From positions 1 to 48,879 of the forward strand of contig JAUZPB010000021.1 of assembly GCA_030706145.1 (NCBI GenBank): a stretch of DNA of 48,879 nucleotides, written 5' to 3'. The position numbers and the translations under genes are program-made. The notes beneath the pieces were generated by a model. That model was given only the letters and a program-made list of their open reading frames with translations, had not been told where the DNA came from and searched no databases. Shown in pieces: positions 5,969 through 20,765 of this stretch. Numbering within the stretch: the stretch's first letter is position 1; each line of letters begins with the position of its first letter. The stretch is from Bacteroidota bacterium (GTDB lineage: Bacteria; Bacteroidota; Ignavibacteria; Ignavibacteriales; SURF-24).

Positions 5969-6280
5969 GCTATTAACCATTTGACAAATAGTCACGGAAT
6001 TTTCTCTGATCCATTTCATTAGGCTATGTTAATAAATAATATTTGAAAAATTATTAAACCCGCAGCATAAAAAAGTTATCTAAATATAAATTACCTGTAT
6101 AATACCTTAAAAATAATACTGTTTTCTGGAATTTTTTTGACCAAAGCAAAAATCTGCATTATTTGGGAAAAATTTTAATTTGTCTTGTAACTTTTCCACA
6201 AAGCGATACGTCAAAAGTTTTAGAAAATCAAAATAATAAGTGATTTTATAATTTTGATTATATATCTAAAGGAGAAAAGA
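5969..6280. other. AT-rich intergenic region before the MacAB-like efflux locus
   Basis: 312 bases with no credible gene on either strand. It holds a candidate promoter (listed separately) and ends in a strong ribosome-binding site, AAAGGAG at 6268-6274, six bases before the ATG at 6281. I saw no clear terminator hairpin for cca. Confidence 0.6.
6137..6165 (+). promoter_or_regulatory. Candidate promoter for the TolC/MacA/MacB-like operon
   Basis: TTGACC at 6137-6142, a 17-base spacer and TATTTG at 6160-6165 lie about 115 bases before the tolC-like start. The -35 is good and the -10 is weak by the sigma-70 consensus. Assigned on pattern and position only. Confidence 0.35.
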
Positions 6281-7627
6281 ATGCGTTGTTATTTAACACT
6301 TGCTGTCTTATTGGCATTGTCATTAAATGCATGGGCACAAAAAACTATTACACTGGATCAGGCAATTAAGACTGCTTTACAGAAAAATACTACTTTACAA
6401 AAAACTGAATATTCGGTTGTTTCTAATCAAGCAACACTGAAGAGCTCTTATGGTGGACTGCTGCCTAACCTAAGTGTAGGTGGTGGATGGCAGTGGGCAA
6501 GGATTTCAGGAAAAGGGGGATCGTATATTAATAATGGTATACTTTCCGTAATTCCATCCTCAAGCGATAGCCGTTCATTTAACCTTGGAGCTGAATTGAG
6601 CTGGACACTTTTTGATGGACTTGCAAGTTTTTCAAAGGTATCTCAAAGCCGGAATGATCTGGAAGCTGCAAGACAGTCTCTGGCAAGAGTCAGACAGGAT
6701 ATTGTTTTTAACACTACATCTACATATTATGATGTATTAAATGCAAAACAGCTTGTAAAGGTTAGAGAAGATGATTTGGAATATAATCAGAAGAACCTGG
6801 AAATAATTACAGAAAGAAATAAGCTGGGTGCAGTAACTTTAGCAGACGTTTATGCACAACAGGTAAATGTAGGTAATGCTGAACTCGCACTTATTCAGGC
6901 GAAAAATAGTTATGAAACTCTAAAGAGCCAGTTTTTGAATTATCTTGGGTTGGATGTTTTAGAAGAGATAGACTTGAACGATACTATTGAAAATGATACC
7001 TTGAAGATAATAGATGCTCAAAAGCTATTAAATGAGTCAAGTAATTTAAGTCAGCTTGTAAGTCAAGCTTTTGTAAACCGTGCAGATTATAAGAGTGCAC
7101 AATACCAGTTGCAAAGTGCAAACAATGGAATTGATATAGCAAAAAGCGCATATCTTCCTAATTTAAGTTTTTCAAATTCTTATAGTACGAAAGCTGATGC
7201 AATAGATAACCTAAATGATAGCCGTACATACCAGGCAGGGTTGAATCTTAATATCCCGATTTTCACAGGGTGGTCGACCGAAAGAAATGTTGAAGTTGCA
7301 AAGGTAAATGCTCAGACACAAGAAGTAGTCTTGACAGAGATGGAAAGACAAATAAAAATGGATATAAAGAAGACATATCTTGATTTTCAGGCAGCACAGA
7401 AGCAGCTGGAAGTAAGCAGTAAAAACGTTCAGTCGGCTCAGCAGAACCGTCAGATAGAGCAAGAAAAATACAATCTTGGTTCAGGAACACTGGTTAATTT
7501 GCTCTTAGCAACTTCAAACTATACACAAGCATTATCAAGTTATATAAACACCAAGTTCCAGTTTTATAAAATGAGATCACAGCTTGAGTATTACTTAGGA
7601 ATTCTTGATTACAACAAATTTGAATAA
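6281..7627 (+). CDS. TolC-family outer-membrane efflux channel (MacAB-type locus)
   Basis: Outer-membrane and periplasmic exit duct of a tripartite exporter. The start at 6281 (448 residues) is preferred over an upstream in-frame ATG at 6254 because it follows AAAGGAG and begins with a signal peptide, MRCYLTLAVLLALSLNAWAQ. The mature part shows the TolC two-fold repeat: LDQAIKTALQKN near the N-terminus, long heptad-rich helices, and a second copy starting around QLVSQAFVNRADYKSAQYQL. The ending EYYLGILDYNKF is typical. It is followed after 19 bases by an adaptor gene and then ATPase and permeases, so it is very likely the channel for that system. Substrate unknown. Confidence 0.9.
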   Translation: MRCYLTLAVLLALSLNAWAQKTITLDQAIKTALQKNTTLQKTEYSVVSNQATLKSSYGGLLPNLSVGGGWQWARISGKGGSYINNGILSVIPSSSDSRSFNLGAELSWTLFDGLASFSKVSQSRNDLEAARQSLARVRQDIVFNTTSTYYDVLNAKQLVKVREDDLEYNQKNLEIITERNKLGAVTLADVYAQQVNVGNAELALIQAKNSYETLKSQFLNYLGLDVLEEIDLNDTIENDTLKIIDAQKLLNESSNLSQLVSQAFVNRADYKSAQYQLQSANNGIDIAKSAYLPNLSFSNSYSTKADAIDNLNDSRTYQAGLNLNIPIFTGWSTERNVEVAKVNAQTQEVVLTEMERQIKMDIKKTYLDFQAAQKQLEVSSKNVQSAQQNRQIEQEKYNLGSGTLVNLLLATSNYTQALSSYINTKFQFYKMRSQLEYYLGILDYNKFE

Positions 7628-7646
7628 ATAGCAGGGAGAATCACCA

Positions 7647-8954
7647 ATGGCAAATGGAAACAAAAAGAAAACAAAGAAGAAAATATTCATTTTCACCGGA
7701 GCTGGACTTGTACTAGCAATACTGGGCCTGCTGGTAGTCTTCAGTGGCAATAAAGAACAAATAACATCTGTACAAACTGAGACTGTTCAGAGGCGCAATA
7801 TCACACAAAAAGTGTCGGCAACCGGAAAGATTAATCCGGAATATAAGGTTGTTATTACTCCTGAAGTAACAGGTGAAATTGTTGAACTCCCTGTAAAGGA
7901 AGGAGATGTAGTAAAAAAAGGACAGCTTCTTATAAAGATTAAACCTGATAGTTATATAGCAGCCAGGGATCGTGCTGAAGCAAATCTTGAATCAGTAAAG
8001 GCTGGTTTAGCAAGAAGTAAAGCCGTTTTAGATAAGGTTAAATCCGAATATGAAAGAGCTCAAGGCTTATATAATAAGAAGCTTACCAGCGATGCTGAAT
8101 TAGAACAGGCAAAATCAAATTACTTGTCAAGTAAAAGTGACTATGAGAGCCAGGTTGCAACAGTACAGCAGTTCAAAGCAGCCTTAAAAGAAGCAAATGA
8201 AAGTCTGTACAAAACCACAATTTATTCTCCAATGAATGGAACTATAAGCCAGTTAAATGTTGAGCTTGGTGAGAGGGTATTAGGAAGCGGATTCAGTCAG
8301 GGTACAAACATTATGACAGTTGCTGATCTATCACAGATGGAGGCAGATGTTGAAGTCGATGAAAATGATGTTGTGTTAATTTCAGTTGGTGACACAGCAA
8401 AAATTGAAGTAGATGCTTTTCCAAATAGAGAGTTCAAAGGTGTTGTTTACCAAATAGGGAACAGTGCAAAAACTACAGCCGAGGGAACACAGCAGGAAGT
8501 AGTAAACTTTGAGATAAAAATCAGGATCAGCGATCCAGAAAAAGCAATAAGACCGGGTATGTCATGTAATGCAGATATTTTGACAGAGACAAGAAACAAT
8601 GTACTTTCTGTTCCAATACAGAGTGTTACAGCAAGAGGCAATATGCAGCAAGCTCCAGCAGGAGGTAAAGAAGGTGGTGAGGAAGGCGTAACTCAGGTAA
8701 AGAATGAAGTAAAAAAAGATAAAAAGCCAAAAGAAGTCGTTTTTCTTGCAGAGAATAATAAGGCAAAAATGAAAGAGGTCAAGACAGGTATTAGTGATGA
8801 TAATTATATTGAAGTAATAAGCGGGTTAGGCGAAGGTGCAAAGGTTATTAGTGGTCCATATCGCGCAATTTCAAGAGAGCTTAATGATAATGCAAATATC
8901 AGGCTTGATAGCGGTAAAAAAGGGACAAAAGAAAACGACAAACAGGATAAGTAA
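7647..8954 (+). CDS. MacA/HlyD-type periplasmic adaptor (membrane fusion protein)
   Basis: Links the inner-membrane transporter to the TolC channel. The 435-residue protein starts with a Lys-rich tail and a single membrane anchor (IFIFTGAGLVLAILGLLVVF). A lipoyl-like half motif follows (GEIVELPVKEGDVVKKGQLL), then a coiled-coil hairpin at about residues 105-185, the second lipoyl half (YSPMNGTISQLNVELGERV) and a beta-barrel/membrane-proximal region. A charged insert near residues 333-368, rich in Gly, Glu and Lys, is unusual and probably flexible. It starts at ATG 7647 after AGGGAG in the short gap behind tolC. The ATPase gene follows after 12 bases. Confidence 0.9.
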   Translation: MANGNKKKTKKKIFIFTGAGLVLAILGLLVVFSGNKEQITSVQTETVQRRNITQKVSATGKINPEYKVVITPEVTGEIVELPVKEGDVVKKGQLLIKIKPDSYIAARDRAEANLESVKAGLARSKAVLDKVKSEYERAQGLYNKKLTSDAELEQAKSNYLSSKSDYESQVATVQQFKAALKEANESLYKTTIYSPMNGTISQLNVELGERVLGSGFSQGTNIMTVADLSQMEADVEVDENDVVLISVGDTAKIEVDAFPNREFKGVVYQIGNSAKTTAEGTQQEVVNFEIKIRISDPEKAIRPGMSCNADILTETRNNVLSVPIQSVTARGNMQQAPAGGKEGGEEGVTQVKNEVKKDKKPKEVVFLAENNKAKMKEVKTGISDDNYIEVISGLGEGAKVISGPYRAISRELNDNANIRLDSGKKGTKENDKQDK

Positions 8955-8966
8955 TACGGAAAAAAC

Positions 8967-9695
8967 ATGAATATAATTAACATAGAACACATAGCAAAAA
9001 TTTATCAGGTAGGAACTGAAGAAGTACATGCTTTAAGGGATGTATCAATCAGGATAAATAAAAATGAATACGTTGCAATAATGGGTCCCTCGGGCTCAGG
9101 AAAATCTACACTGATGAATATGTTAGGATGCCTGGATACACCTACCAGTGGCAAGTATGAGTTCAAGGGAATAAGTGTTAGTCAGATGAGTGATAATGAT
9201 TTGGCAAAGGTCAGGAACAAGGAAATTGGCTTTGTTTTTCAGACGTTTAACCTTCTTCCCAGATCTGATGCGCTGCATAATGTTGAACTTCCTTTGATCT
9301 ATGCAGGCGTCCCATCGGCAGAAAGAAAGGAAAGAGCAAAAGAAGCATTGCTAAATGTTGGACTTGGTGATAGGATTCATCACAAGCCAAATGAATTGTC
9401 AGGTGGGCAGAGACAAAGAGTAGCTATAGCACGCGCTTTAGTTACTAAACCTGCAATAATTTTGGCAGATGAACCTACTGGGAACCTGGATTCAAAAACA
9501 GGTGAAGATATTATGACCCTTTTTAATGATATCTATACGCAGGGTAATACGATAATTCTGGTAACTCACGAGGAATATATAGCTGAGCACGCTGCAAGGA
9601 TAGTCAGAATAAAAGACGGTCTGGTAGAAAGAGATGAGACGGTAGAAAACAGGTACATTCCAAATGGGAAAAAAATATTCACAAGCCAAAGTTAA
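8967..9695 (+). CDS. ABC transporter ATP-binding protein, MacB/LolD type
   Basis: Cytoplasmic ATPase that powers the adjacent FtsX-type permeases. All ABC motifs are present in 242 residues: Walker [11 protein letters not shown]-loop VFQTFNLLP, signature [15 protein letters not shown], Walker [13 protein letters not shown] and the switch His in VTHEE. In the classical MacB this domain is fused to the permease; here it is a separate protein, as in LolD or FtsE. It is the only ATPase gene in the locus, while four permease genes follow, so it probably serves more than one permease pair. Its stop codon falls inside a 12-bp tandem repeat. Confidence 0.95.
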
Positions 9696-9726
9696 AACAA
9701 AAGTTAAAACAAAAGTTAAAACAAAA
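9691..9726 (+). repeat. Three perfect 12-bp tandem repeats between ATPase and permease genes
   Basis: The unit GTTAAAACAAAA occurs three times in a row (9691-9702, 9703-9714, 9715-9726). The ATPase stop TAA is in the first copy, and the last A of the third copy is the A of the next gene's ATG. The unit length is a multiple of three, and every copy carries an in-frame TAA for the upstream gene. No Shine-Dalgarno sequence is visible before the permease start. Confidence 0.95.
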
Positions 9727-10961
9727 TGAAGAACTTTTTATTTGAATTAAAAGAGGGCTTAGCTATATCTTTCATGGCTATTAAGGCGAACAAGATACGT
9801 TCTGCCTTAACAGCCATAGGAATATTCATCGGTGTTACTTCCGTTGTACTAATGTCGACTGCTATTAAAGGAATTAACAACTCTTTTCAAAATGGTATTA
9901 GTGCTCTTGGAGCTGATAACCTTTACATAGATAAGTGGAAATGGTTTAATGATGAGGAATGGTGGAAGACCAGGAACCGTAAAAATATAGATATGGATGA
10001 ATATGAAAAGTACAGGGAACTTGCGAAACTTCCAGCTGCAATTGCTCCAACTGTATGGACGAATCAGAATGTTAAGAATGGAGGAAAGAGTATTGATGGT
10101 ACATTGCTGACAGGTACAACGAACGAATATTTGGCTACTACAAATTTTACTTTTAATGAAGGCCGATTCTTTAACGAGGTCGAAAGCAAAGGCAACAGAA
10201 ATGTATGCGTAATAGGAAGTGATGTTGCCAAGAATTTGTTTGGAGGAAGCAGTGCTCTTGAACAGTTTATTAAAATTAAGGGCATAAAGTTCAAGGTTGT
10301 TGGTGTTTTGTCCGAGCAGGGTAGCTTTATGCTCGGAAGTTTCAATCCGGATAAACAGGTTTATTTGCCAATAGGGAATATTTTTAAGTATTTCCAATCT
10401 CAGAACTTCAGAAGTGTAACCATAACTGTAAGGGTAAGCAACACAGCTATGATTGAGCAGACAAAAGAAGAAGCTCAGGGAATAATGAGGAAAATAAGGG
10501 GATTAAACTATAATCAGGAAGATGATTTCTCAATAAATCAGCAGGAAGGTTTTACAAAGCTATATGATCAGACCGTTGGAGTAATACAGATTGTTGGATT
10601 ATTTATTACTGGATTGTCCTTATTTGTAGGTGCAATAGGGATAATGAATATAATGTTTGTTTCTGTGAAGGAAAGGACGAAGGAAATTGGAATAAGGAAG
10701 GCAATTGGAGCAAAGAAAAGGACCATTTTAAGTCAGTTTATTTCAGAAGCAATAATAATCTGTATGATAGGCGGGCTTGTAGGTTTGATTGGGGCAGTAA
10801 TATTAAGCAAGGTTATAAATCAATTTTTACCAACTTCTTTTCAATTTCAGGCAGTAATTCTGGCAATAGTAATTTCTTTAATAACCGGAGTGGTTTCTGG
10901 ATTTGCACCCGCTTATTCGGCGGCAAAAATGGATCCGGTAGAAGCATTGAGGTATGAGTGA
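9726..10961 (+). CDS. MacB-like FtsX-domain permease, type A, first pair
   Basis: Inner-membrane permease of the MacB/FtsX (ABC3) class without its own ATPase. The 411 residues comprise an N-terminal helix (ALTAIGIFIGVTSVVLMST), a large periplasmic MacB core of about 240 residues, and three C-terminal helices with the hallmark GIMNIMFVSVKERTKEIGI. It ends with PVEALRYE. It resembles the gene at 12444 much more than the one at 10961: both share a WFxDExW...RNRK segment after the first helix and a 26-base identical stretch (10641-10666 and 13365-13390). It likely pairs with the next permease as a heterodimer. The start lies directly at the end of the 12-bp repeats. Confidence 0.93.
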   Translation: MKNFLFELKEGLAISFMAIKANKIRSALTAIGIFIGVTSVVLMSTAIKGINNSFQNGISALGADNLYIDKWKWFNDEEWWKTRNRKNIDMDEYEKYRELAKLPAAIAPTVWTNQNVKNGGKSIDGTLLTGTTNEYLATTNFTFNEGRFFNEVESKGNRNVCVIGSDVAKNLFGGSSALEQFIKIKGIKFKVVGVLSEQGSFMLGSFNPDKQVYLPIGNIFKYFQSQNFRSVTITVRVSNTAMIEQTKEEAQGIMRKIRGLNYNQEDDFSINQQEGFTKLYDQTVGVIQIVGLFITGLSLFVGAIGIMNIMFVSVKERTKEIGIRKAIGAKKRTILSQFISEAIIICMIGGLVGLIGAVILSKVINQFLPTSFQFQAVILAIVISLITGVVSGFAPAYSAAKMDPVEALRYE

Positions 10962-12193
10962 TGAGAAGTCTTGAGATCATTAAAATAGCATTAAACGCAC
11001 TGCGTTCAAATAAATTAAGATCAGCTTTGACTATTTTAGGAATAATTGTTGGAATATTCTCAATTATTTCAATAAGTACGATAATTTCAATGCTTCAGGG
11101 AAGCATTGAAGAAGGGACCTCTCAATTAGGGCAGAATACATTTCAGATACAAAAGTGGCCTGTAATGATGGAAGGTGGTCCTGGAGCCCGCGACAAGTAC
11201 AGGAACAGAAAAGATATTACACTTGATGATTATTATAGACTAAAAGAGCGTTTGAATGTTGCCAAATATGTTGGAGCAGAGCAGTGGACATTCGGTAAAA
11301 CTGTAAAATACTCTAACATTGAGACCAATCCGAATATTCAGATGTGTGGTATTACTCCTGATGCTCAGCCAAACAACAAATGGATAATTGAAGATGGACG
11401 AGCCATTAATAATTCTGATATTGAGCATTATAGCAGGGTATGTGTACTTGGTAAAGATGTTGTAAATAAGCTCTTCAAGTTTATTAATCCTGTTGGGCAA
11501 AAAGTAAGAGCCGATGGCAAATTGCTAGAGATCATTGGTGTATATGAATCCCAGGGAGAGCTTTTTGGCCAGAGCCGTGATAATTTTGTTGTAATGCCTA
11601 TTACAACTTATCAGAACTTCTATGGAAAAACAAATAATAGTATTAATATTACTGTTATGTCTGAGAGTAAAGAAGCTTATGATGCAACGATCGAATCGGC
11701 TATTGGTCATATGCGTACAATTAGAAAAGTCCCAGTTGGCCAGGAAAATGATTTTGAGATATTTTCAAATGAAACAATACTAACTACTATTAATGGAATT
11801 AAGCAGGGGGCTGAAATTGGGGCTATGGTAATTGCAGCAATAGCATTGCTTGCTGCAGGCATTGGAATTATGAATATTATGCTTGTAAGTGTTACTGAAA
11901 GGACACGTGAGATAGGAGTTAGAAAGGCAATTGGAGCCCAAAGAAATAATATACTCTTTCAGTTTTTAATTGAAGCAATAGTCTTGTGTCTTCTTGGCGG
12001 CATAATAGGGATTTTGCTGGGAGTTGGCGTTGGAAATTTAGCTGGTTCGATGCTGAATGCAACACCTAAGATTCCAATGGGATCGGTGCTTACGGGTATT
12101 ATTGTATGTATTGCAGTAGGAGTAACCTTTGGGACATATCCTGCATATAAGGCTGCAAACCTTGATCCAATAGAAGCTCTCAGGTATGAGTAA
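10961..12193 (+). CDS. MacB-like FtsX-domain permease, type B, first pair
   Basis: Second permease of the pair, same fold: N-terminal helix, periplasmic core and three C-terminal helices with GIMNIMLVSVTERTREIGV, ending DPIEALRYE. I prefer ATG 10961 (410 residues), which shares one base with the upstream TGA stop; GTG at 10958 is the in-frame alternative. The tight junction indicates translational coupling with the type A partner. It resembles the gene at 13749: both have KY.NRKD after a Gly-rich turn and share 23 identical bases at 11870-11892 and 14685-14707. A terminator hairpin follows the stop. Confidence 0.93.
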   Translation: MRSLEIIKIALNALRSNKLRSALTILGIIVGIFSIISISTIISMLQGSIEEGTSQLGQNTFQIQKWPVMMEGGPGARDKYRNRKDITLDDYYRLKERLNVAKYVGAEQWTFGKTVKYSNIETNPNIQMCGITPDAQPNNKWIIEDGRAINNSDIEHYSRVCVLGKDVVNKLFKFINPVGQKVRADGKLLEIIGVYESQGELFGQSRDNFVVMPITTYQNFYGKTNNSINITVMSESKEAYDATIESAIGHMRTIRKVPVGQENDFEIFSNETILTTINGIKQGAEIGAMVIAAIALLAAGIGIMNIMLVSVTERTREIGVRKAIGAQRNNILFQFLIEAIVLCLLGGIIGILLGVGVGNLAGSMLNATPKIPMGSVLTGIIVCIAVGVTFGTYPAYKAANLDPIEALRYE

Positions 12194-12227
12194 AAATAGT
12201 TCTTGAGAATGTGTTTTTCTTAAAGAG

Positions 12228-12260
12228 AGCCTCTCGTTTTTATTCTGGGAGGCTTTTTTT
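12228..12260 (+). terminator. Rho-independent terminator after the first permease pair
   Basis: AGCCTCTC (12228-12235) pairs with GGGAGGCT (12247-12254), with one G-T pair and an 11-base loop, followed by a run of T. It separates the tolC-macA-macB-permease operon from the second permease pair. Confidence 0.85.
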
Positions 12261-12350
12261 ATTTAGGAATTTTGCTTCTTTTGCTATATTCATGAGATGA
12301 CAAATTTTTAAATAATTCTTTCCTTTAATAATAATATTCCTTTAATTTAT

Positions 12351-12380
12351 TTGACAAAATAAATTTGTTGTACTTATTTT
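12351..12380 (+). promoter_or_regulatory. Candidate promoter for the second permease pair
   Basis: TTGACA (12351-12356) is a perfect -35. TATTTT at 12375-12380 (18-base spacer) or TTATTT one base earlier (17 bases) could be the -10. It lies between the terminator and the permease gene at 12444, so the second pair may be transcribed separately. Confidence 0.4.
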
Positions 12381-12443
12381 TTACCAAAAATGCATTTCTT
12401 AGTAATGCATTTTATCCAAATAAAAACAAACACTTACAGGCAT

Positions 12444-13685
12444 ATGATCAAACACTTTTTTCTTGAAGTCAAAGAAGGCTTATTTATATCCTTCAGAGCC
12501 ATAAGAGCAAACAAAATGCGCTCAATACTAACAACATTAGGTATTGTGATCGGCATATTTGCTGTTACAATAATGTCTACAGCAATAACAGGTTTGAGGA
12601 ATGCTTTTATCAAATCGATTGCTTCAATTGGCTCAGACGTGTTTTTTGTTGAAAAATGGAGTTGGTTTAGTGATGAAGACTGGCATGTAATGAGAAACCG
12701 AAAGTATATTACATGGGAACAGTACGAAAAATTAAGGACAGCCTTAGACAAAGATGTTGATGCGGTTGTCCCAAGCCTTAGCGGGCATGGGGCACAGGTT
12801 AAAAACAGAGACAAATCTACTGAAGCTTCTATGATAATTGGAACAACAGCTGACTATGTAAAGACAACTGGAACATTTCCTGCCTATGGGCGCTTCATGA
12901 CGGATTTTGAAGTTAAAGCTAGCCACAACATCTGTGTAGTTGGACAAGATATAGTTGATAACTTGTTTCCAAATGAGGATCCAATAAATAAGTATATAAA
13001 GGTTAATGGAAATACGCTAAGGATTGTAGGAGTGCTGGAAAAGCAGGGCAGCGGCTTTATGGGTAGTATGAGTCTGGACGGGCAGATAATAATGCCGCTT
13101 GAGCTATTTAAGAAGATAATAGGACCGCGGCGAGACTCCTTTAGAATAAATATTAAAGTAAAAGATGTAAAGGAGATGGCCGTTATAAAAGAAGAGATCA
13201 GAGATATTATGCGTTCAATTCGAAAAGTCCCTTATGGGAAACCTGATGATTTTGGAATTAACCAGCAAGAAGCTTTAACGAAGATGTACGATAGTATAGT
13301 AGGTGTTGTTGCTATCGCGGGTCTGGTAATTACAGCCTTGTCGCTGTTTGTCGGAGCAATTGGCATAATGAATATAATGTTTGTTTCTGTAAAGGAAAGG
13401 ACAAAGGAAATTGGAATTAGGAAGGCAATAGGAGCAAAAACATGGTCGATCCTTCTACAATTTCTGGCCGAAGCAGCTATAATTTGTATGATTGGAGGCG
13501 CAATTGGAGTAATAATTGCTTATCCAGTCAGTTTAATTATTAATCAGTTTTTCCCTACATCAATGCCGATAGGGATAGTTGTAATTGCATTTTTAATATC
13601 CGCAGTTGTAGGAGTAATATCTGGCTTTTTACCAGCTTTTAAGGCCTCAAAGATGGATCCAGTAGAAGCCTTAAGGTATGAATAA
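12444..13685 (+). CDS. MacB-like FtsX-domain permease, type A, second pair
   Basis: A 413-residue paralogue of the permease at 9726, with the same N-terminal helix, MacB-type periplasmic core and C-terminal helices (GIMNIMFVSVKERTKEIGI) and the same PVEALRYE ending. An in-frame ATG exists at 12390, but alignment with the paralogue (MIKHFFLEVKEGL against MKNFLFELKEGL) supports ATG 12444. The ribosome-binding site is poor (AGG three bases upstream). No ATPase is encoded with this pair, so it presumably uses the ATPase at 8967 or one elsewhere. Confidence 0.9.
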   Translation: MIKHFFLEVKEGLFISFRAIRANKMRSILTTLGIVIGIFAVTIMSTAITGLRNAFIKSIASIGSDVFFVEKWSWFSDEDWHVMRNRKYITWEQYEKLRTALDKDVDAVVPSLSGHGAQVKNRDKSTEASMIIGTTADYVKTTGTFPAYGRFMTDFEVKASHNICVVGQDIVDNLFPNEDPINKYIKVNGNTLRIVGVLEKQGSGFMGSMSLDGQIIMPLELFKKIIGPRRDSFRINIKVKDVKEMAVIKEEIRDIMRSIRKVPYGKPDDFGINQQEALTKMYDSIVGVVAIAGLVITALSLFVGAIGIMNIMFVSVKERTKEIGIRKAIGAKTWSILLQFLAEAAIICMIGGAIGVIIAYPVSLIINQFFPTSMPIGIVVIAFLISAVVGVISGFLPAFKASKMDPVEALRYE

Positions 13686-13748
13686 CTCTTGTTGTTCTTG
13701 GTTTAATAATTTTCGAAATATAAAATCATATAAAAATATCGGTTTAGT

Positions 13749-15008
13749 ATGAGTACAAAAGAAAGGTTTCAGATAGTACAGATCTATGAAAGCATGATAA
13801 TGGCCTTAAACTCATTAAGAGCAAATAAAACAAGGTCATTTCTGACACTTTTTGGGATTGCCATCGGGTTGTTTTCAATTATAATAGTAATGACAGCAAT
13901 TTCGGCAATTCAGGGGACGATAGAGGGAGCTTTCAATGATATTGGGACGAATAGTATTATTGTACAGAAATATCCTGCAATAATGACTGGAGGGCATAAT
14001 GCCTGGCGCAAATATCACAATCGCAAAGACCTGACAATTGAGCAGGGGGAAAGGCTTCGCGAAATGACGACCTTACCGGTTTCTATCGGAATTTATTTGG
14101 GAGATGGTGGTAAAATAGTCAAATTCGGAGGAGAATCGACAAATCCAAATGTATATGTAGAAGGTACAAATCTCGATGGGTTTAATTCAGCAAATTATGT
14201 AATAGATGATGGCAGAGGGTTTACGAATCAGGACATGGAATATTCAAGAAATGTGTGCATTATTGGCAATGATATTTTGAAAAAGCTATTTAAGTTTGTC
14301 GACCCGATTGGCCAGGAAATAACTATTGACAACATGCAGCTTAAGGTAGTAGGCCGTTTCAAGGAAAAGGGCCAGGTTTTCGGTCAAAGTCAGGATAATT
14401 TTGTTATAGTTCCATTAACGGTTTATAAAAAATATTACGGGGACGACCATAGGTCAGCAGATTACAAGATACAGGCGCCTAGTCAAAAGCTTTGGGATGC
14501 TACAACTGACCAGGTAATTGGTGCATTAAGAACTATACGCAAGGTAACCCCAGGTGAAGAAAATGATTTTGAAATAGTGTCAAATGACCAGTTAATTGCT
14601 CAGTTCAATGACATAACTAAGTATTTTAAGGTTGGAGCCTTTGTAATTGCATTTATTGCTTTGATTGCCGCTGGTATAGGTATAATGAATATTATGCTTG
14701 TAAGTGTAACGGAAAGGACCCGCGAGATCGGGATCAGGAAAGCAATTGGTGCCAGAAAGACAACAATCCGTTTGCAATTCCTTGTAGAAGCAATTGTACT
14801 TAGTCTAGTAGGTGGATTGATTGGGATTTCAATAGGTGTTCTTGGAGGAAATGTCATTGCAGTTATGCTAAAGGCCTCTGTTGTATTACCAGTCTTTTGG
14901 ATAGGAATTGGAATGGGTGTTACTACGGCTGTAGGGCTTATATTTGGTGTGTATCCTGCAGTAAAAGCTTCAAATCTTGATCCAATTGAAGCTCTAAGAT
15001 ATGAGTAA
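13749..15008 (+). CDS. MacB-like FtsX-domain permease, type B, second pair
   Basis: A 419-residue paralogue of the permease at 10961. It has a longer N-terminal tail (MSTKERFQIVQIYESMI) before the first helix, the MacB-type periplasmic core, and GIMNIMLVSVTERTREIGI with DPIEALRYE at the end. It sits 63 bases after the type A gene, a looser junction than in the first pair. Its end faces the ABC-2 efflux operon on the other strand. A hairpin at 15041-15072 lies between them, but its T-run favours the minus strand. Confidence 0.92.
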   Translation: MSTKERFQIVQIYESMIMALNSLRANKTRSFLTLFGIAIGLFSIIIVMTAISAIQGTIEGAFNDIGTNSIIVQKYPAIMTGGHNAWRKYHNRKDLTIEQGERLREMTTLPVSIGIYLGDGGKIVKFGGESTNPNVYVEGTNLDGFNSANYVIDDGRGFTNQDMEYSRNVCIIGNDILKKLFKFVDPIGQEITIDNMQLKVVGRFKEKGQVFGQSQDNFVIVPLTVYKKYYGDDHRSADYKIQAPSQKLWDATTDQVIGALRTIRKVTPGEENDFEIVSNDQLIAQFNDITKYFKVGAFVIAFIALIAAGIGIMNIMLVSVTERTREIGIRKAIGARKTTIRLQFLVEAIVLSLVGGLIGISIGVLGGNVIAVMLKASVVLPVFWIGIGMGVTTAVGLIFGVYPAVKASNLDPIEALRYE

Positions 15009-15143: not shown

Positions 15144-16367
15144 TTATACTCCTGAGGTCTCCAGATTTTCAACCCCAAAACCATCCTCTTTTTTTCTCTT
15201 TGCATCTTCTTTATTGACAAGGATTTTCATCCTGATTTTGGCCAGTACCAACCCAAGGCAGCACAGGATAACCAGTTGGTATAGTTCAGGAAGAATGTCG
15301 ATCCATCCAGCACCCATTTGTGTAATTCTGTTAAATGCATTTAAATATGGGGTACTTGGTATAACGTAAGATAAATATCTAATCGGAAGAGGCATTGTTT
15401 GTCGTGGCCATGGATATCCTGAAATAAGGAAGAACGGATATGATGTAAAAGCAAACAGCTGCAACGAAACAATTTTGCGCTTGAAAAAAGAGGAGACAAA
15501 AATTCCCATATAGATCACAGAAATAAGAAAAAGAGCCGTAAGAAGAACAACCGCACTTACGCTACCTCTAAAACTTATTTTGAATATAGAGAAGTGGAGC
15601 GTATAGAATAAAACAGCATAGGATGAGAACAATATGAAATAGAAAAGTCCTTTCCCAGTAATAGTTGCCCAGATACTTTTATTTGATGTTGCATAAAGTT
15701 CATGAAGAGTATTAAACTCTCTTTCTTTTGCGACACTTTCGGCTAATCCAATTAGTAAAGTTTGCTGAAGTATCAGAACAAGTAAACCAGGGATAAGGAA
15801 GTCCCCATAGCCTTCAACTGGGTTAAATAAGGATTTCACCTCACAATTCAGGGGTTCGATCAGTTCTTTTGCTTGTTCAAAGCTATAGCCCTGTGTCTGG
15901 AAATATTTTAATCTAACGCCAGCACTTATAGTGCCAGTTACTTCATTTACAGCTTTGTTTATATCATTTGATATAAGGAACCTTGTAGTATTCAGATAGA
16001 CTTTAAGGTCTGTCCCTTTACCGGATTTTAAATTATTTTCAAAGTTCTTTGGAATGAAGACTATACCATGTGACTTAAAGCTATTAACCCTGTCGATAGC
16101 TGAATTCAGGTCAGGAAGGACTTCATTTATATTTATTAGCTGATGTGCATCCAGGTTTCTTATCAACTGCTGAGATAAAGAAGATTTATCCATATCAACA
16201 ACAGCAACTGGCACATCCTGCTCAGACTTATGAAAATATGCACTGCCATAGAAGCAGGCATAAAAAATTGGGGAGAGAAGTATTATTACAATTAAGTCTT
16301 TATCTTTTATTATAAAATTGATCTCTCTTTGTAAGACAGAAAACAGCCCACTAACCCTTCTTCTCAT
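15144..16367 (-). CDS. ABC-2 type permease, second in operon
   Basis: Inner-membrane permease of the ABC-2 class (YhhJ/YbhS/YbhR-like), 407 residues. One N-terminal helix (DLIVIILLSPIFYACFYGSAYF) precedes a long periplasmic domain of about 140 residues containing VAVVDMDKSSLSQQLIRNL, then five C-terminal helices and a conserved GYPWP/PSTPYLNAFNRI-like segment. It starts at ATG 16367, overlapping the upstream permease stop by four bases (ATGA), with GGAG seven bases upstream. It likely forms a heterodimer with its neighbour. No ATP-binding domain is present in it or in the operon. Confidence 0.9.
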   Translation of the reverse strand: MRRRVSGLFSVLQREINFIIKDKDLIVIILLSPIFYACFYGSAYFHKSEQDVPVAVVDMDKSSLSQQLIRNLDAHQLININEVLPDLNSAIDRVNSFKSHGIVFIPKNFENNLKSGKGTDLKVYLNTTRFLISNDINKAVNEVTGTISAGVRLKYFQTQGYSFEQAKELIEPLNCEVKSLFNPVEGYGDFLIPGLLVLILQQTLLIGLAESVAKEREFNTLHELYATSNKSIWATITGKGLFYFILFSSYAVLFYTLHFSIFKISFRGSVSAVVLLTALFLISVIYMGIFVSSFFKRKIVSLQLFAFTSYPFFLISGYPWPRQTMPLPIRYLSYVIPSTPYLNAFNRITQMGAGWIDILPELYQLVILCCLGLVLAKIRMKILVNKEDAKRKKEDGFGVENLETSGV

Positions 16368-17578
16368 ATTGTAACTCCTTCTTCCTTAATCTCCTTTTTG
16401 TAAAATTTATTCATCTGATATTTTAGGACAACCAGAGTAAAAATAAACGAAAGCACAAAGAAGGTTGATAAAATGGTTATTTCGGAAGATGCATATCTTA
16501 ATGGGGCTTTCATTTGATAAATTTTCAAAAAAGCCGTCAAAAAATGAGTAAAGGGAATGATCTGAGTAAAAACATTTTGTGCCACGGGCATACTCCAAAG
16601 CGGAAAGGTAAAACCACTGAAAATAAAAGCCGGCGTATTAACAAACAGTGCCATTTCAGTTGCAAAGAGCTGCTCATGGAAAAAACTTGAGATCAGCATG
16701 GCGGGGAAAAATGCCGCAAAAATAAACAGAACACTAATTAATATTGTCTCAGATATAGAACCATTTATCTCTATGGAGAATAATGGAAATATTATCCCCA
16801 TTACACCTAAGAGAGTTGCCAAATGGATTGCTAAATGAGGAATTGACTTACCTACAAGAATTGTAAGGACATTGTTTTTTGATAGTTCTAATAATTCTCC
16901 AAAGGTATTATGTGTAAATTCCGAGCTAATGACCAGGACTCCTGCCACCATTATTATCATCTGCAACAAAGCCCCAATTAAGCCTGGCAGCAGGTATGAT
17001 ACATAATTATAGTTAGGATTATACATAGGATGAGTTTCAAGCCTAATCGGATTTACAAATGTCATAGCCTTAGCATCATTCATTCCTGCAGTCTTAAATT
17101 TCTTAAGTAAAATGCCGGCTGAAATTGTCTTTACTAAAGTCATTCCGTCTTTATAGATCAGGTTTCCTACAATAAGATTAGACGTATTCTTAAAAAGCAT
17201 GACTGTAGATTTTTTCCCCGTTTTGAGGTCTGCTTCCATTCCTTTAGGAATATAAAATGCTCCTTGGGCATTTCCATTCATGAATTCATGCTTAATTTCA
17301 TCCATAGAGTTTGTATACTTATAAACATGCATTGAACTGGTTGCATCAAGCCCGCGAACAAGCATTCTTGAAATTTCACTATTATCAGCATCAAAAACTA
17401 TTACAGGTAAGTCCCTAACAACACCTTTAATATAAATCAAAGCTAACAATATGAAGAGAATGATAGGAAGAAAGATTGTTAAAGAATAAAGTGTCTTTCT
17501 TTCTCCGATTCTATGTACTTCTCTCCATGCAATTTTCAGCAGGGGAGAGTTAAAACTTTTTGTATTTGTTTGCATCAT
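16364..17578 (-). CDS. ABC-2 type permease, first in operon
   Basis: A 404-residue ABC-2 permease with the same layout as its neighbour: N-terminal helix (LYSLTIFLPIILFILLALIY), periplasmic domain starting LPVIVFDADNSEISRMLVRGL, then C-terminal helices with LISSFFHEQLFATEMALF and FSGFTFPLWSMP. It may start at ATG 17578 or 17575. It lies 24 bases after the adaptor gene. In the related E. coli YbhGFSR system a double ATPase (YbhF) stands between adaptor and permeases; here nothing is there. Confidence 0.9.
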   Translation of the reverse strand: MMQTNTKSFNSPLLKIAWREVHRIGERKTLYSLTIFLPIILFILLALIYIKGVVRDLPVIVFDADNSEISRMLVRGLDATSSMHVYKYTNSMDEIKHEFMNGNAQGAFYIPKGMEADLKTGKKSTVMLFKNTSNLIVGNLIYKDGMTLVKTISAGILLKKFKTAGMNDAKAMTFVNPIRLETHPMYNPNYNYVSYLLPGLIGALLQMIIMVAGVLVISSEFTHNTFGELLELSKNNVLTILVGKSIPHLAIHLATLLGVMGIIFPLFSIEINGSISETILISVLFIFAAFFPAMLISSFFHEQLFATEMALFVNTPAFIFSGFTFPLWSMPVAQNVFTQIIPFTHFLTAFLKIYQMKAPLRYASSEITILSTFFVLSFIFTLVVLKYQMNKFYKKEIKEEGVTI

Positions 17579-17602
17579 TTCTATCGCTGTAATAAACTAA
17601 AA

Positions 17603-18583
17603 TTATAATGAAAGATTAACAGTCATACCCGCTCTTAAACCAGCGATGTAATTTTTACTGCGGAGATGAATTTCGAAAGTCTTTAAGTCAAAATCACCTT
17701 TCTGATTTGTAGCTTTCCATGTAGCAAATTCAGCCATAGGAGCAATGTAAGTTACTTCAAAAGGGAAAGTTTCATTGCCAAGGGCAGGAATGCGGCCCAT
17801 AAACTGAGCTCCCTTTCTAATTTTTGAAAGCTGATCTTCTCTAACCTGGAGGACGACCCAGTTGTCTTTAGGATTAATTAGGCTAAATAGCGGGTATCCG
17901 CTTGCGATTATTTCTCCCGGATCAGTAATCTTTTTGCTAACTTCACCATCGATAGGGCTAATTAAATTAAGTTCCTGGTGGTAAGCCAAGGCTTCATTGT
18001 ATGTGTTTTGAGCCTGATAAAACAGAGCTTCAGCACCCTCAATTTCTTCGACCCTTGCTCCTTTATTTACGAGGTTGAGTTTAGCTTTTGCAGCATCCAT
18101 TTGTTCTTTAGCTGCCTTAAACTGGAATTCAACTTGATCTTTTTCCTGAGTCGAGATAACCTGATCCTTATACAAGGACTGGATTCTTTTCCAGGTTTTT
18201 TCAGCAAGGTCATACTGAGCTTGAGCTTGCCTGTAGAGTTTTTCAGTAGCTTCTTTTTCTTCGGGACGGGCACCATTATGAGCCATTTGCATTTTTGATT
18301 TAGCGGCTTCCATTACTCCACGGGCCTGCTCAAGCTTTGCGTCCATTTCTTTGCTTTCTAAACGTGCTAAAATTTGTCCTTTATGAACAATATCTCCTTC
18401 ACCAACAAATACTGTATCAATTCTGCCTGGTATTTTAGAAGCTACATCGACAGTTGAAGTTTCAACAACGCCAGTCATTATTGTTTCTTCAGTATTAACT
18501 CCTTTTGAAACAAGAACACTTCCCCCGATAAGAGCTATGCAGACGGGGATGGCTAATATTATATTTGTTTTAGATAATTTCAT
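17603..18583 (-). CDS. HlyD-family periplasmic adaptor (YbhG/EmrA-like)
   Basis: The 326-residue adaptor joins the ABC-2 permeases to the TolC channel. It has an N-terminal membrane anchor (IILAIPVCIALIGGSVLVSKG), a first lipoyl half (GRIDTVFVGEGDIVHKGQILARLE), and a long coiled-coil hairpin at about residues 80-200 with two related turns (NGARPEEKEATE and KGARVEEIEGAE). A second lipoyl half follows (SPIDGEVSKKITDPGEIIASG), then a short beta-barrel. It starts three bases after the tolC-like gene, whose end contains its GGAG ribosome-binding site, so the two are translated together. Confidence 0.92.
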   Translation of the reverse strand: MKLSKTNIILAIPVCIALIGGSVLVSKGVNTEETIMTGVVETSTVDVASKIPGRIDTVFVGEGDIVHKGQILARLESKEMDAKLEQARGVMEAAKSKMQMAHNGARPEEKEATEKLYRQAQAQYDLAEKTWKRIQSLYKDQVISTQEKDQVEFQFKAAKEQMDAAKAKLNLVNKGARVEEIEGAEALFYQAQNTYNEALAYHQELNLISPIDGEVSKKITDPGEIIASGYPLFSLINPKDNWVVLQVREDQLSKIRKGAQFMGRIPALGNETFPFEVTYIAPMAEFATWKATNQKGDFDLKTFEIHLRSKNYIAGLRAGMTVNLSL

Positions 18584-18586
18584 TTT

Positions 18587-20065
18587 TTATTTCTCCTTAT
18601 GCCAGATTCTTAAAATATCTTGTGGATTTCCAGTTGCTACAAACAGGTCTGTTAATGATTTATAGTATTCATAAAGTGAATTAAGACTCTCGATTTGATT
18701 TCTTTCGAGAGAAAGCTGGGCATCAATTACTTCCAAAGATGTACCCATTCCAGAGATGAATCTCTTTTCGTTGAGTCTTAAACTTTCTTTTGCCAAATCT
18801 ATTGTTTTACCAAGCTTTTCATATCTTGTCCTGGCATTTACCACATCGCGATACGATTTATTTACCCATAATCCGATCTTTCTTTTAGCATCTGCCTCTA
18901 CATATTGAACTTCGCGTTCAATATGAACGGCATTTTGAAGTTTTGCATAATCTTTCATTCCGTTGAACAGATTAAATTTAACCTGGACACCGACAGCCCA
19001 TCTAGGTTCAAGGCTTGAAAGATATTCTGGATACATTTCATATTTACCAAAAGCTGCAATAGTGGGCAGAAAACCTGCTCTTTCGGCAACATATTTGCTG
19101 TTAGCAGCTTCCTTCTTCATCTCGATCAACCTTAGTATCGGCTGATTTTGATTTGCAAGGTTAAGGAATGTATTAAGTGAGTCAGAAATGCCCGAGTAGA
19201 TCAAAGTATCGGAAACATTAATTTGAGAATCTTCAGGTATCCCAAGAGTATTTTTTAGTGCAATTTCTGCTAATTCAAGCTTATTTAAGTCATCTGAAAG
19301 ATTTCTTTCGGCGTCAGCAACTGCCACTTCAGCTCTTAAGAGGTGATAATTTGCAATAAGACCTTCATTATAGAGTTTTTGAGCGTCATTTTTATGTTTA
19401 TTGATTCCTTCTAGAACATCTTTTCTGGTCTTAACAACATTTTGCATAAGTACAGTGGAAAGATAATTGTTGACAGCTTCCTGCAATACCTCATTTCTTG
19501 TCTTCTGGAGTTCAATTTCAGAAGATTGTCTTTCCTCAGAAGCAAAATCTTTAGCAGCCATGAGTTTTCCACCAAGAAATATAGGTTGGATGCCAACGAT
19601 TGTAGCTGTTCTGTAGTTCTGTTTTTTAAATGTCTCAACAAATGGAGGTATAAGTTGATTTAGCTGAGACATAGCAGCTTGAGTATATAGATCCTTTTGA
19701 GCTTGAGAGTAGGGAGCTTTGCCTTGAAGCACATTTCCCATGCTAGCTAGCTCAGCCTGAGTTTTACCCTGCAGAGTAATCATTACGTCTCTAATAGGGC
19801 TAAGGTCAATATTCATATTTTCATTTAAATGAGTATAACTGCCTTCAATACCAATTGAAGGCATAAAATTACCCCATGCCTCCATATCCTGATATTTTTT
19901 CTGATATGTACGTTCTTCAAATTGTTTGATCTTCTCGTTATTTCTAAGAGCTAATTCTACGGCATTTTCAAGTGTTAAAACTTGAGAAAACAAATTAATA
20001 GGAATTGCTAAAATTCCTAAGAGTGATAAAAACACGAGCTTCTTCGTTTTGCTATTTTTGTGCAT
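18587..20065 (-). CDS. TolC-family outer-membrane efflux channel (TetR-controlled operon)
   Basis: The 492-residue outer-membrane channel is the first gene of the efflux operon. A Lys-rich start and signal peptide (FLSLLGILAIPINLFSQ) are followed by LENAVELALRNNEKIKQFEERTYQKK, coiled-coil helices and a second repeat near PILRLIEMKKEAANSKYVAERAG. It ends with YYKSLTDLFVATGNPQDIL. It differs clearly in sequence from the TolC at 6281, so each efflux locus has its own channel. A TetR-type operator lies 21 bases upstream of the ATG, and the tetR gene ends 53 bases before it. Confidence 0.92.
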   Translation of the reverse strand: MHKNSKTKKLVFLSLLGILAIPINLFSQVLTLENAVELALRNNEKIKQFEERTYQKKYQDMEAWGNFMPSIGIEGSYTHLNENMNIDLSPIRDVMITLQGKTQAELASMGNVLQGKAPYSQAQKDLYTQAAMSQLNQLIPPFVETFKKQNYRTATIVGIQPIFLGGKLMAAKDFASEERQSSEIELQKTRNEVLQEAVNNYLSTVLMQNVVKTRKDVLEGINKHKNDAQKLYNEGLIANYHLLRAEVAVADAERNLSDDLNKLELAEIALKNTLGIPEDSQINVSDTLIYSGISDSLNTFLNLANQNQPILRLIEMKKEAANSKYVAERAGFLPTIAAFGKYEMYPEYLSSLEPRWAVGVQVKFNLFNGMKDYAKLQNAVHIEREVQYVEADAKRKIGLWVNKSYRDVVNARTRYEKLGKTIDLAKESLRLNEKRFISGMGTSLEVIDAQLSLERNQIESLNSLYEYYKSLTDLFVATGNPQDILRIWHKEK

Positions 20066-20086
20066 CTAGTTATCCATATTGTATAA

Positions 20087-20100
20087 TGAATCAATATTCA
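20087..20100. promoter_or_regulatory. Probable TetR operator upstream of the tolC-hlyD-ABC2 operon
   Basis: TGAATCAATATTCA is an inverted repeat (TGAAT-N4-ATTCA), identical to the copy upstream of tetR. A -35-like TTGAAT overlaps it, with a weak TATGGA 17 bases on; a TATACA follows the palindrome directly. Binding here would block transcription of the operon. Confidence 0.8.
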
Positions 20101-20118
20101 AAAAATGTGTAAAAATTT

Positions 20119-20706
20119 TTAATTTAATAGACCTTTTTTGCAAAAATACTTGACATTTTGTCTTATATGGTGCAGTGAAACACTATCCGGGTTATTAGCC
20201 CATTGGTGTAATAAAAGTCGCATTCCGCCAAAGATGAAAGAGCGGATCATTTTGACGTCGATTTTTGTGTTAAAAACTCCGTTACTAATGCCTTCATTAA
20301 CAATAGCTTCACCAAGGTCGAGGAATTTTTCATAATATAGTGTGAACTTCTCAGGTGACTTTTGAAGCAGGTAGTTTTGCTCGTTAACGAAAACTATAGC
20401 AAGTGCCGGATCTTGAATAAATGTGTCAAAAAGAAGGTCAATCATCATATCAAACTTCTCAACTGCATCAATATCTTTACTTTCGGCAATTTCCTTCAAT
20501 TCAAGGAAAAGCTTATCCCAGAGTTTGGCAAAAATCGTAAGCAATATCATTTCTTTGTTTTCGTAATATACATAAACGCTGCCTGTAGCAACACCGGCTA
20601 GTTCGGCAATCTTATGTATTTTAGCGTTATGGTAGCCGCTTTCTGCAAATATTTTAATGGCTGCCTCAAGGATGTCTTGTTCCTTGTTTCCTTCTTTTGT
20701 TCTCAT
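20119..20706 (-). CDS. TetR/AcrR-family transcriptional repressor
   Basis: The 195-residue regulator has an N-terminal TetR helix-turn-helix: ILEAAIKIFAESGYHNAKIHKIAELAGVATG then SVYVYYENKEMIL, at about residues 11-60. The all-helical C-terminal ligand domain matches the TetR_C_6-like pattern often attached to efflux and fatty-acid regulators. It is the first gene of the minus-strand efflux locus. A consensus promoter and a palindromic operator precede it, and the same palindrome recurs before tolC, so it most likely represses itself and the exporter until a ligand (probably an export substrate) binds. The ligand cannot be deduced. Confidence 0.93.
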   Translation of the reverse strand: MRTKEGNKEQDILEAAIKIFAESGYHNAKIHKIAELAGVATGSVYVYYENKEMILLTIFAKLWDKLFLELKEIAESKDIDAVEKFDMMIDLLFDTFIQDPALAIVFVNEQNYLLQKSPEKFTLYYEKFLDLGEAIVNEGISNGVFNTKIDVKMIRSFIFGGMRLLLHQWANNPDSVSLHHIRQNVKYFCKKGLLN

Positions 20707-20736: not shown

Positions 20737-20765
20737 AAAATAAATATTCCAAGTACATTTGTCAA
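20737..20765 (-). promoter_or_regulatory. tetR promoter
   Basis: On the minus strand TTGACA (20760-20765) is followed by a 17-base spacer and TATTTT (20737-20742). This is the best sigma-70-like promoter seen in the window. The operator lies immediately downstream. Confidence 0.7.

Follow-up and report, generated by a model that had tools for sequence, protein, structure and literature searches.

An ATPase is what defines an ABC exporter, and permeases of the ABC-2 type contact it through a coupling helix between TM2 and TM3. The closest described relatives of the operon analyzed here are exporters of the YbhGFSR and YhiI-RbbA-YhhJ type, with which it shares a YbhG-like HlyD adaptor, two ABC2_membrane_3 permeases, a TolC-type partner and a TetR-type regulator. 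ABC-2-like proteins without an ATPase also exist, namely YhgE/Pip and EsaA/YueB. The operon lies in a 48,879-nucleotide stretch of an Ignavibacteria genome (assembly GCA_030706145.1, contig JAUZPB010000021.1; hereafter, the window), and it belongs to a widespread family in which the membrane half of an ABC exporter is under strong selection, the ATPase gene is missing and the ATPase docking site is relaxed or lost. On balance, we think it likely that this family is a conserved tripartite exporter of ABC-2 fold that no longer uses an ATPase, with export independent of ATP.

Organization of the operon

The open reading frame list and Pfam matches define a minus-strand unit, 20706–15144, with the order tetR-tolC-hlyD-ABC2-ABC2, in which the first permease gene is designated P2 and the second P1 (Table 1). 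It thus combines an outer-membrane factor, an adaptor and an inner-membrane transporter, the gene set of a tripartite efflux system, and Pfam detects the two ABC2_membrane_3 permeases and HlyD adaptor expected of a YbhGFSR-type exporter. The coordinates bear out the gene order and spacing of the original prediction: after a tetR-tolC interval of 53 bases, gaps of 3 (tolC-hlyD) and 24 bases (hlyD-P2) are followed by a 4-base overlap between P2 and P1. The predicted absence of an ATPase gene or domain likewise holds, with no ABC_tran domain found by Pfam inside 20706–15144. The regulator scored 124 bits against the FadR model NF053878, under the cut-off of 200.

Table 1 Features of the ATPase-less operon and its flanks in the window
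Feature	Coordinates	Strand	Annotation
tetR	20119..20706	-	TetR/AcrR-family regulator with YsiA/FadR-like C-terminal domain; TetR_N, TetR_C_4
tolC	18587..20065	-	TolC-type outer-membrane channel; OEP 2.8e-42
hlyD	17603..18583	-	HlyD/YbhG/EmrA-type periplasmic adaptor; HlyD_D23; NF002939 159 bits, TIGR00998 111 bits
P2 (first permease gene)	16364..17578	-	ABC-2 permease; ABC2_membrane_3 PF12698 3.9e-42; P2-like clade SH-aLRT 97
P1 (second permease gene)	15144..16367	-	ABC-2 permease with QQT in TM2; PF12698 1.9e-52
P1 coupling segment, residues 214-231	15675..15728	-	Where an ATPase would be expected to dock; little conserved among ATPase-less members
P1 TM2 motif Q201-Q202-T203	15759..15767	-	Conserved in the ATPase-less family
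Promoter-like site 5' of tetR	20737..20765	-	10/12 match; placement only
Intrinsic terminator after P1	15040..15073	-	13 pairs, 6 G-C, then T-run

The operon had also been described as bounded by a promoter and a terminator, and here the two ends differ. The terminator is strong, and terminator-like sites are more numerous region-wide than expected (13 observed versus 3.9); the promoter-like site has a suitable position, but sites of its kind are no more frequent than in shuffled sequence (19 versus 20.2). Upstream of tetR, a further terminator-like hairpin (20821–20795) parts the operon from the preceding gene.

Convergent to the operon, a cluster at 6254–15008 encodes TolC, HlyD and a LolD/MacB-type ATPase; next come four permease genes of FtsX/MacB type, giving two permease pairs to one ATPase. 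The ATPase, at 8967, had been typed as MacB/LolD and regarded as no obvious partner for the ABC-2 pair, and its place in this tolC-hlyD-NBD-FtsX cluster agrees with that assessment; we rejected it as a likely partner since it has FtsX permeases of its own and such a neighbor is missing beside most related operons.

Distribution of the family

Our survey of homologous operons found no ATPase in those of the same family: a nucleotide-binding domain (NBD) is encoded on the same strand beside the permeases in 0/111 loci of the ATPase-less family (window included) versus 30/30 loci of a sister family with the arrangement hlyD-NBD-[tolC]-NBD-ABC2-ABC2. The 111 loci come from Ignavibacteria, Calditrichota, Zixibacteria, Fibrobacteres and Bacteroidota, about five of them being the same genome sampled twice, and neither count includes a sister-type permease pair at L078. 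That pair (7582–9994, genome G120) has an intact coupling motif, with no hlyD, tolC or NBD nearby. Among the 111 loci, tolC is present in 109 and hlyD in 110. Within the phylum (296 genomes), every one of the closest P1 relatives belongs to an operon without an ATPase, of either a two-permease or a one-permease form, and tetR-hlyD-NBD-(tolC)-NBD-ABC2-ABC2 operons hold the more distant relatives. Named GTDB genomes contributed another 80 loci, each an ATPase-less tolC-hlyD-ABC2-ABC2 operon to the extent that its contig could be read; the closest named relative, from an ‘Ignavibacteria bacterium’, has a permease 62% identical to that of the window, and related operons also occur in gut Bacteroidales.

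Annotated ATPase-less operons were also found in plasmid records, some of which are chromosomes despite the label, from Agrobacterium, Parabacteroides, Riemerella, Bacteroides, Haematobacter, Rhizobium, Persicobacter, Acinetobacter baumannii and Citrobacter; other plasmid relatives carry a YbhF-type ATPase. The A. baumannii operon, an ATPase-less tolC-hlyD-ABC2-ABC2 set between serC and gyrA (L249, 1168–6011), looks chromosomal, its first permease being 98.6–100% identical across four A. baumannii records. A mobile form of the family is carried by the Riemerella anatipestifer plasmid pRCAD0416RA-1 (L242, 3078–7038), where marR-tolC-hlyD and a single ABC-2 permease without an ATPase have tet(X), ere(D), lnu(I), blaOXA and aadS as neighbors.

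A conserved additional operon gene able to energize the pump was sought across the family loci and not found; among extra operon genes, tetR alone recurs widely. Six loci encode a conserved protein of 180–230 aa directly 3' of P1 (e.g., L048 6720–7301, L054 6783–7307 and L047 9268–9798).

Descent and selection

The ATPase-less state requires a single change in a tree built from 94 permeases, and SH-aLRT values are 97 for P1, 91 for P2 and 100 for the single-permease form. When Proteobacteria are added, the P1-like (95) and P2-like (97) groups persist, each spanning the phyla, and a single change again accounts for the ATPase label, while the branch that unites all ATPase-less permeases in the best tree falls from 88 in the first tree to 52. 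On these sequence relationships a single origin is the simplest reading, and is short of proven given the value of just 52 for the joining branch. Purifying selection is strong (median dN/dS 0.054–0.058). The original prediction had compared the operon with YbhGFSR, which is fair as a structural comparison; in descent, the window’s permeases belong to a group that does not include the ATPase-bearing relatives of YbhGFSR type.

The coupling segment and the permease fold

The ATPase-less family has a relaxed or deleted coupling helix. We ranked an 18-residue segment of the permeases (214–231) by variability among sliding windows, and in the sister family it lies at the 2nd and 8th percentiles, among the most conserved parts, versus the 71st percentile in ATPase-less operons near the window, the 88th–95th family-wide and the 64th in the single-permease form. 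The entropy of the same segment relative to the TM helices, compared at matched divergence (43–45% mean identity), gave ratios of 1.21 [1.10–1.27] for P1 near the window and 1.02 [0.92–1.11] for P2 of the same operons, versus 0.68 [0.60–0.74] and 0.44 [0.37–0.50] for two ATPase-served permeases, and the bootstrap intervals of the ATPase-less and ATPase-served permeases do not overlap. Some members have lost part or all of the segment: it is about 10–17 residues shorter in P1 of Agrobacterium, A. baumannii, Rhizobium, Haematobacter and Citrobacter and in P2 of L055 and L150, and one permease has no coupling helix at all in the Proteobacteria and in L150 (genome G070). The YbhGFSR-type coupling-helix motif (ExExGTxExLxxTP) is not conserved across the ATPase-less family, and in plasmid relatives that have an ATPase the segment is present with most of ExExGTxExL intact.

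The P1 of the window has a partly eroded copy of this motif, retaining E215, E217, T220, E223 and L224 and lacking its G, E and P, and its structural model places a short coupling helix at 221–227. Because these residues and the modeled helix are kept, and because E15 and E215 are conserved in both the ATPase-less and ATPase-bearing families, a docking surface may survive. The original prediction had named, as the finding that would count against it, homologous operons that regularly carry an ATPase deleted here, together with degraded permease coupling helices. The second half describes the family well, with the helix relaxed or gone family-wide and partly eroded in the window; the first half does not, and the scenario fails as worded, since close homologous operons never carry an ATPase.

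The predicted structure of P1 (pLDDT 90.8) comprises an elbow helix, six TM helices and an extracytoplasmic domain, and has the ABC-2/type V fold (ABCH-9C, Z 22.3; ABCA4, Z 21.2; ABCG1, Z 20.5). In the model of L150 P2, TM2 (185–211) and TM3 (221–246) are joined by a short loop with no coupling helix, and its match to ABCG1 (Z 24.2, rmsd 2.6, 233 aligned) confirms, at the level of the model, that the ABC-2 fold is intact despite the missing helix. Natural P2-P1 fusions occur at L061 (7041–9500, genome G014) and in Citrobacter werkmanii (L250, 3735–5996), from which we infer that P1 and P2 form a heterodimer.

Candidate ATPases elsewhere in the genome

We judge ATP-independent export to be the best-supported mechanism and a borrowed ATPase its main rival. 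The original prediction allowed that the permease pair either borrows an ATPase encoded elsewhere or works differently, and the data favor the latter (no in-operon NBD in the family versus one in every sister locus) and disfavor borrowing. Candidates for the lender are the YbhF-like pair in the second cluster of the host (C112) and a promiscuous subunit of DrrA type, by analogy with MsmX, the ATPase that several sugar importers share. The host genome does hold a canonical two-NBD cluster, tetR-hlyD-NBD-tolC-NBD-ABC2-ABC2 (L042), and shared ATPases are known for type I importers (PMC7658222). We searched the host for orphan ATPases through its 56 PF00005 matches with locus-by-locus inspection of context, and the orphan YbhF- or DrrA-like ATPase foreseen in the original prediction was not among the loci inspected, where each NBD of that type sits beside its own permease; the orphan NBDs were LptB, FtsE, an MlaF-like subunit, one unassigned NBD (L103) and a truncated LolD/DarD-type protein.

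Among other carriers of the family, there is a handful of DrrA-type NBDs with no evident permease beside them (e.g., L225 and L232), so that lending of an ATPase is conceivable in some of them. YbhF-type NBDs, however, are wholly absent from six carriers (G012, G112, G210, G002, G017 and G269), where the best match reaches 183–238 bits versus 284 or more elsewhere, and no one ATPase candidate common to all carriers was found. Borrowing is also difficult to square with a coupling segment that ranks with the least constrained stretches of the family’s permeases and is deleted in some members. The window’s own helix is eroded just in part, which leaves room for a borrowed ATPase, and we consider this explanation unlikely while taking it seriously.

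Proposed mechanism and remaining alternatives

TM2 is the best-conserved region of P1 (entropy 0.60 near the window). Its Q/H-Q-T motif (201–203) is near-universal in ATPase-less P1, the single-permease form having QQ and P2 having Q-M, and none of these patterns was seen among the ATPase-bearing relatives compared; Q202 is present in 98–99% of ATPase-less P1 and is an uncommon residue in ATPase-bearing relatives. TM2 lines the central cavity in ABCG-type exporters, and by this analogy the conserved polar site may bind a substrate or an ion. The permeases were inspected for a conserved buried acid or arginine of the kind that proton-coupled transporters use, and none was found. As candidates for proton coupling, we set aside the polar TM2 QQ, glutamine not being protonatable, and P2 His248/His345, which are conserved in just about 65%; there were no others.

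We propose that TolC-HlyD-(ABC-2)2 is a complete envelope-spanning exporter in which P1 and P2 would pair in the inner membrane as a heterodimer of ABC-2 (type V) fold, with HlyD and TolC as the duct and TetR as the regulator of expression, probably responding to a compound of hydrophobic or fatty-acid-like character. The family appears to be a distinct one that has dispensed with the ATPase, and because it encodes no NBD and the cytoplasmic segment that would receive the power stroke is relaxed or deleted across it, transport is most likely ATP-independent. It would be driven by an ion gradient or a substrate gradient, perhaps via the polar TM2 site; proton-motive force as the source is a guess. 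The FadR/YsiA-like TetR, and an ATPase-less hlyD-ABC2-ABC2 operon on the Agrobacterium plasmid pAtCFBP6626c that adjoins an oleate hydratase gene (L240, 4228–10349), hint at fatty-acid-like substrates, which we treat only as a lead. The broader form of the proposal is that an ABC-2 exporter fold gave rise, probably in a single early conversion, to an inner-membrane pump of a tripartite system that works independently of ATP, and this we hold as possible rather than probable.

It is improbable that the ABC-2 pair no longer transports and is instead a membrane scaffold or sensor for HlyD and TolC, in the manner of YhgE/Pip or EsaA/YueB. P1 does weakly resemble the YhgE/Pip N-terminal model, and no energy-coupling residue is evident; yet its score (TIGR03061, 28.2 bits) is far under the cut-off of 96.15, the near-constant company of tolC and hlyD supplies a tripartite duct that implies export, the member on the Riemerella plasmid is under MarR control and has resistance genes around it, and the most constrained region corresponds to the cavity-lining helix of ABCG-type exporters. 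That the operon is a normal ABC exporter deprived of its ATPase in this genome, through a deletion or a faulty assembly, is scarcely credible and was rejected: although the host assembly is in 345 contigs, the operon is intact in one contig from upstream hairpin to terminator, and none of the 111 loci has an in-operon ATPase.

Implications

Such a family would show that the ABC-2 fold can run on another energy source, or else would reveal a shared ATPase that serves exporters in trans. If the ATP-independent reading is true, these operons would join the RND, MFS and ATP-driven ABC systems as a further class by which tripartite pumps are energized, one that has spread through Bacteroidota and relatives and Proteobacteria. 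Such a class of efflux may go uncounted, since annotation says simply ‘ABC transporter permease’.

Comparison with known systems

No description of ATPase-less ABC-2 tripartite operons was found in the literature that could be searched. An operon in a triclosan-adaptation paper has an ATPase, and that paper also concerns a TriABC pump (PMC12838394). Bacteroides thetaiotaomicron BT3902-04, listed as ‘ABC transporter permeases, HlyD family secretion protein’ (PMC10434189), may be a family member, judging from the wording of its annotation.

Unlike YbhGFSR and YhiI-RbbA-YhhJ, the operon has no ATPase gene, places tolC first and does not conserve the coupling-helix motif, and its permeases form separate clades with QQT in TM2. 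With YhgE/Pip and EsaA/YueB it shares a PF12698-type membrane domain without an NBD, but those families are not known to have an HlyD/TolC operon. The ABCG, ABCA and ABCH (type V) exporters have the same transmembrane fold, with fused NBDs that are missing here, and differ from the present permeases in the extracytoplasmic domain of about 140 residues that the latter have between TM1 and TM2. EmrAB-TolC and MdtNOP are alike in having an ATPase-free inner-membrane pump, a TolC duct and an HlyD adaptor, the one here being related to EmrA and MdtN, whereas the inner-membrane pump of the operon described here has the ABC-2 fold.
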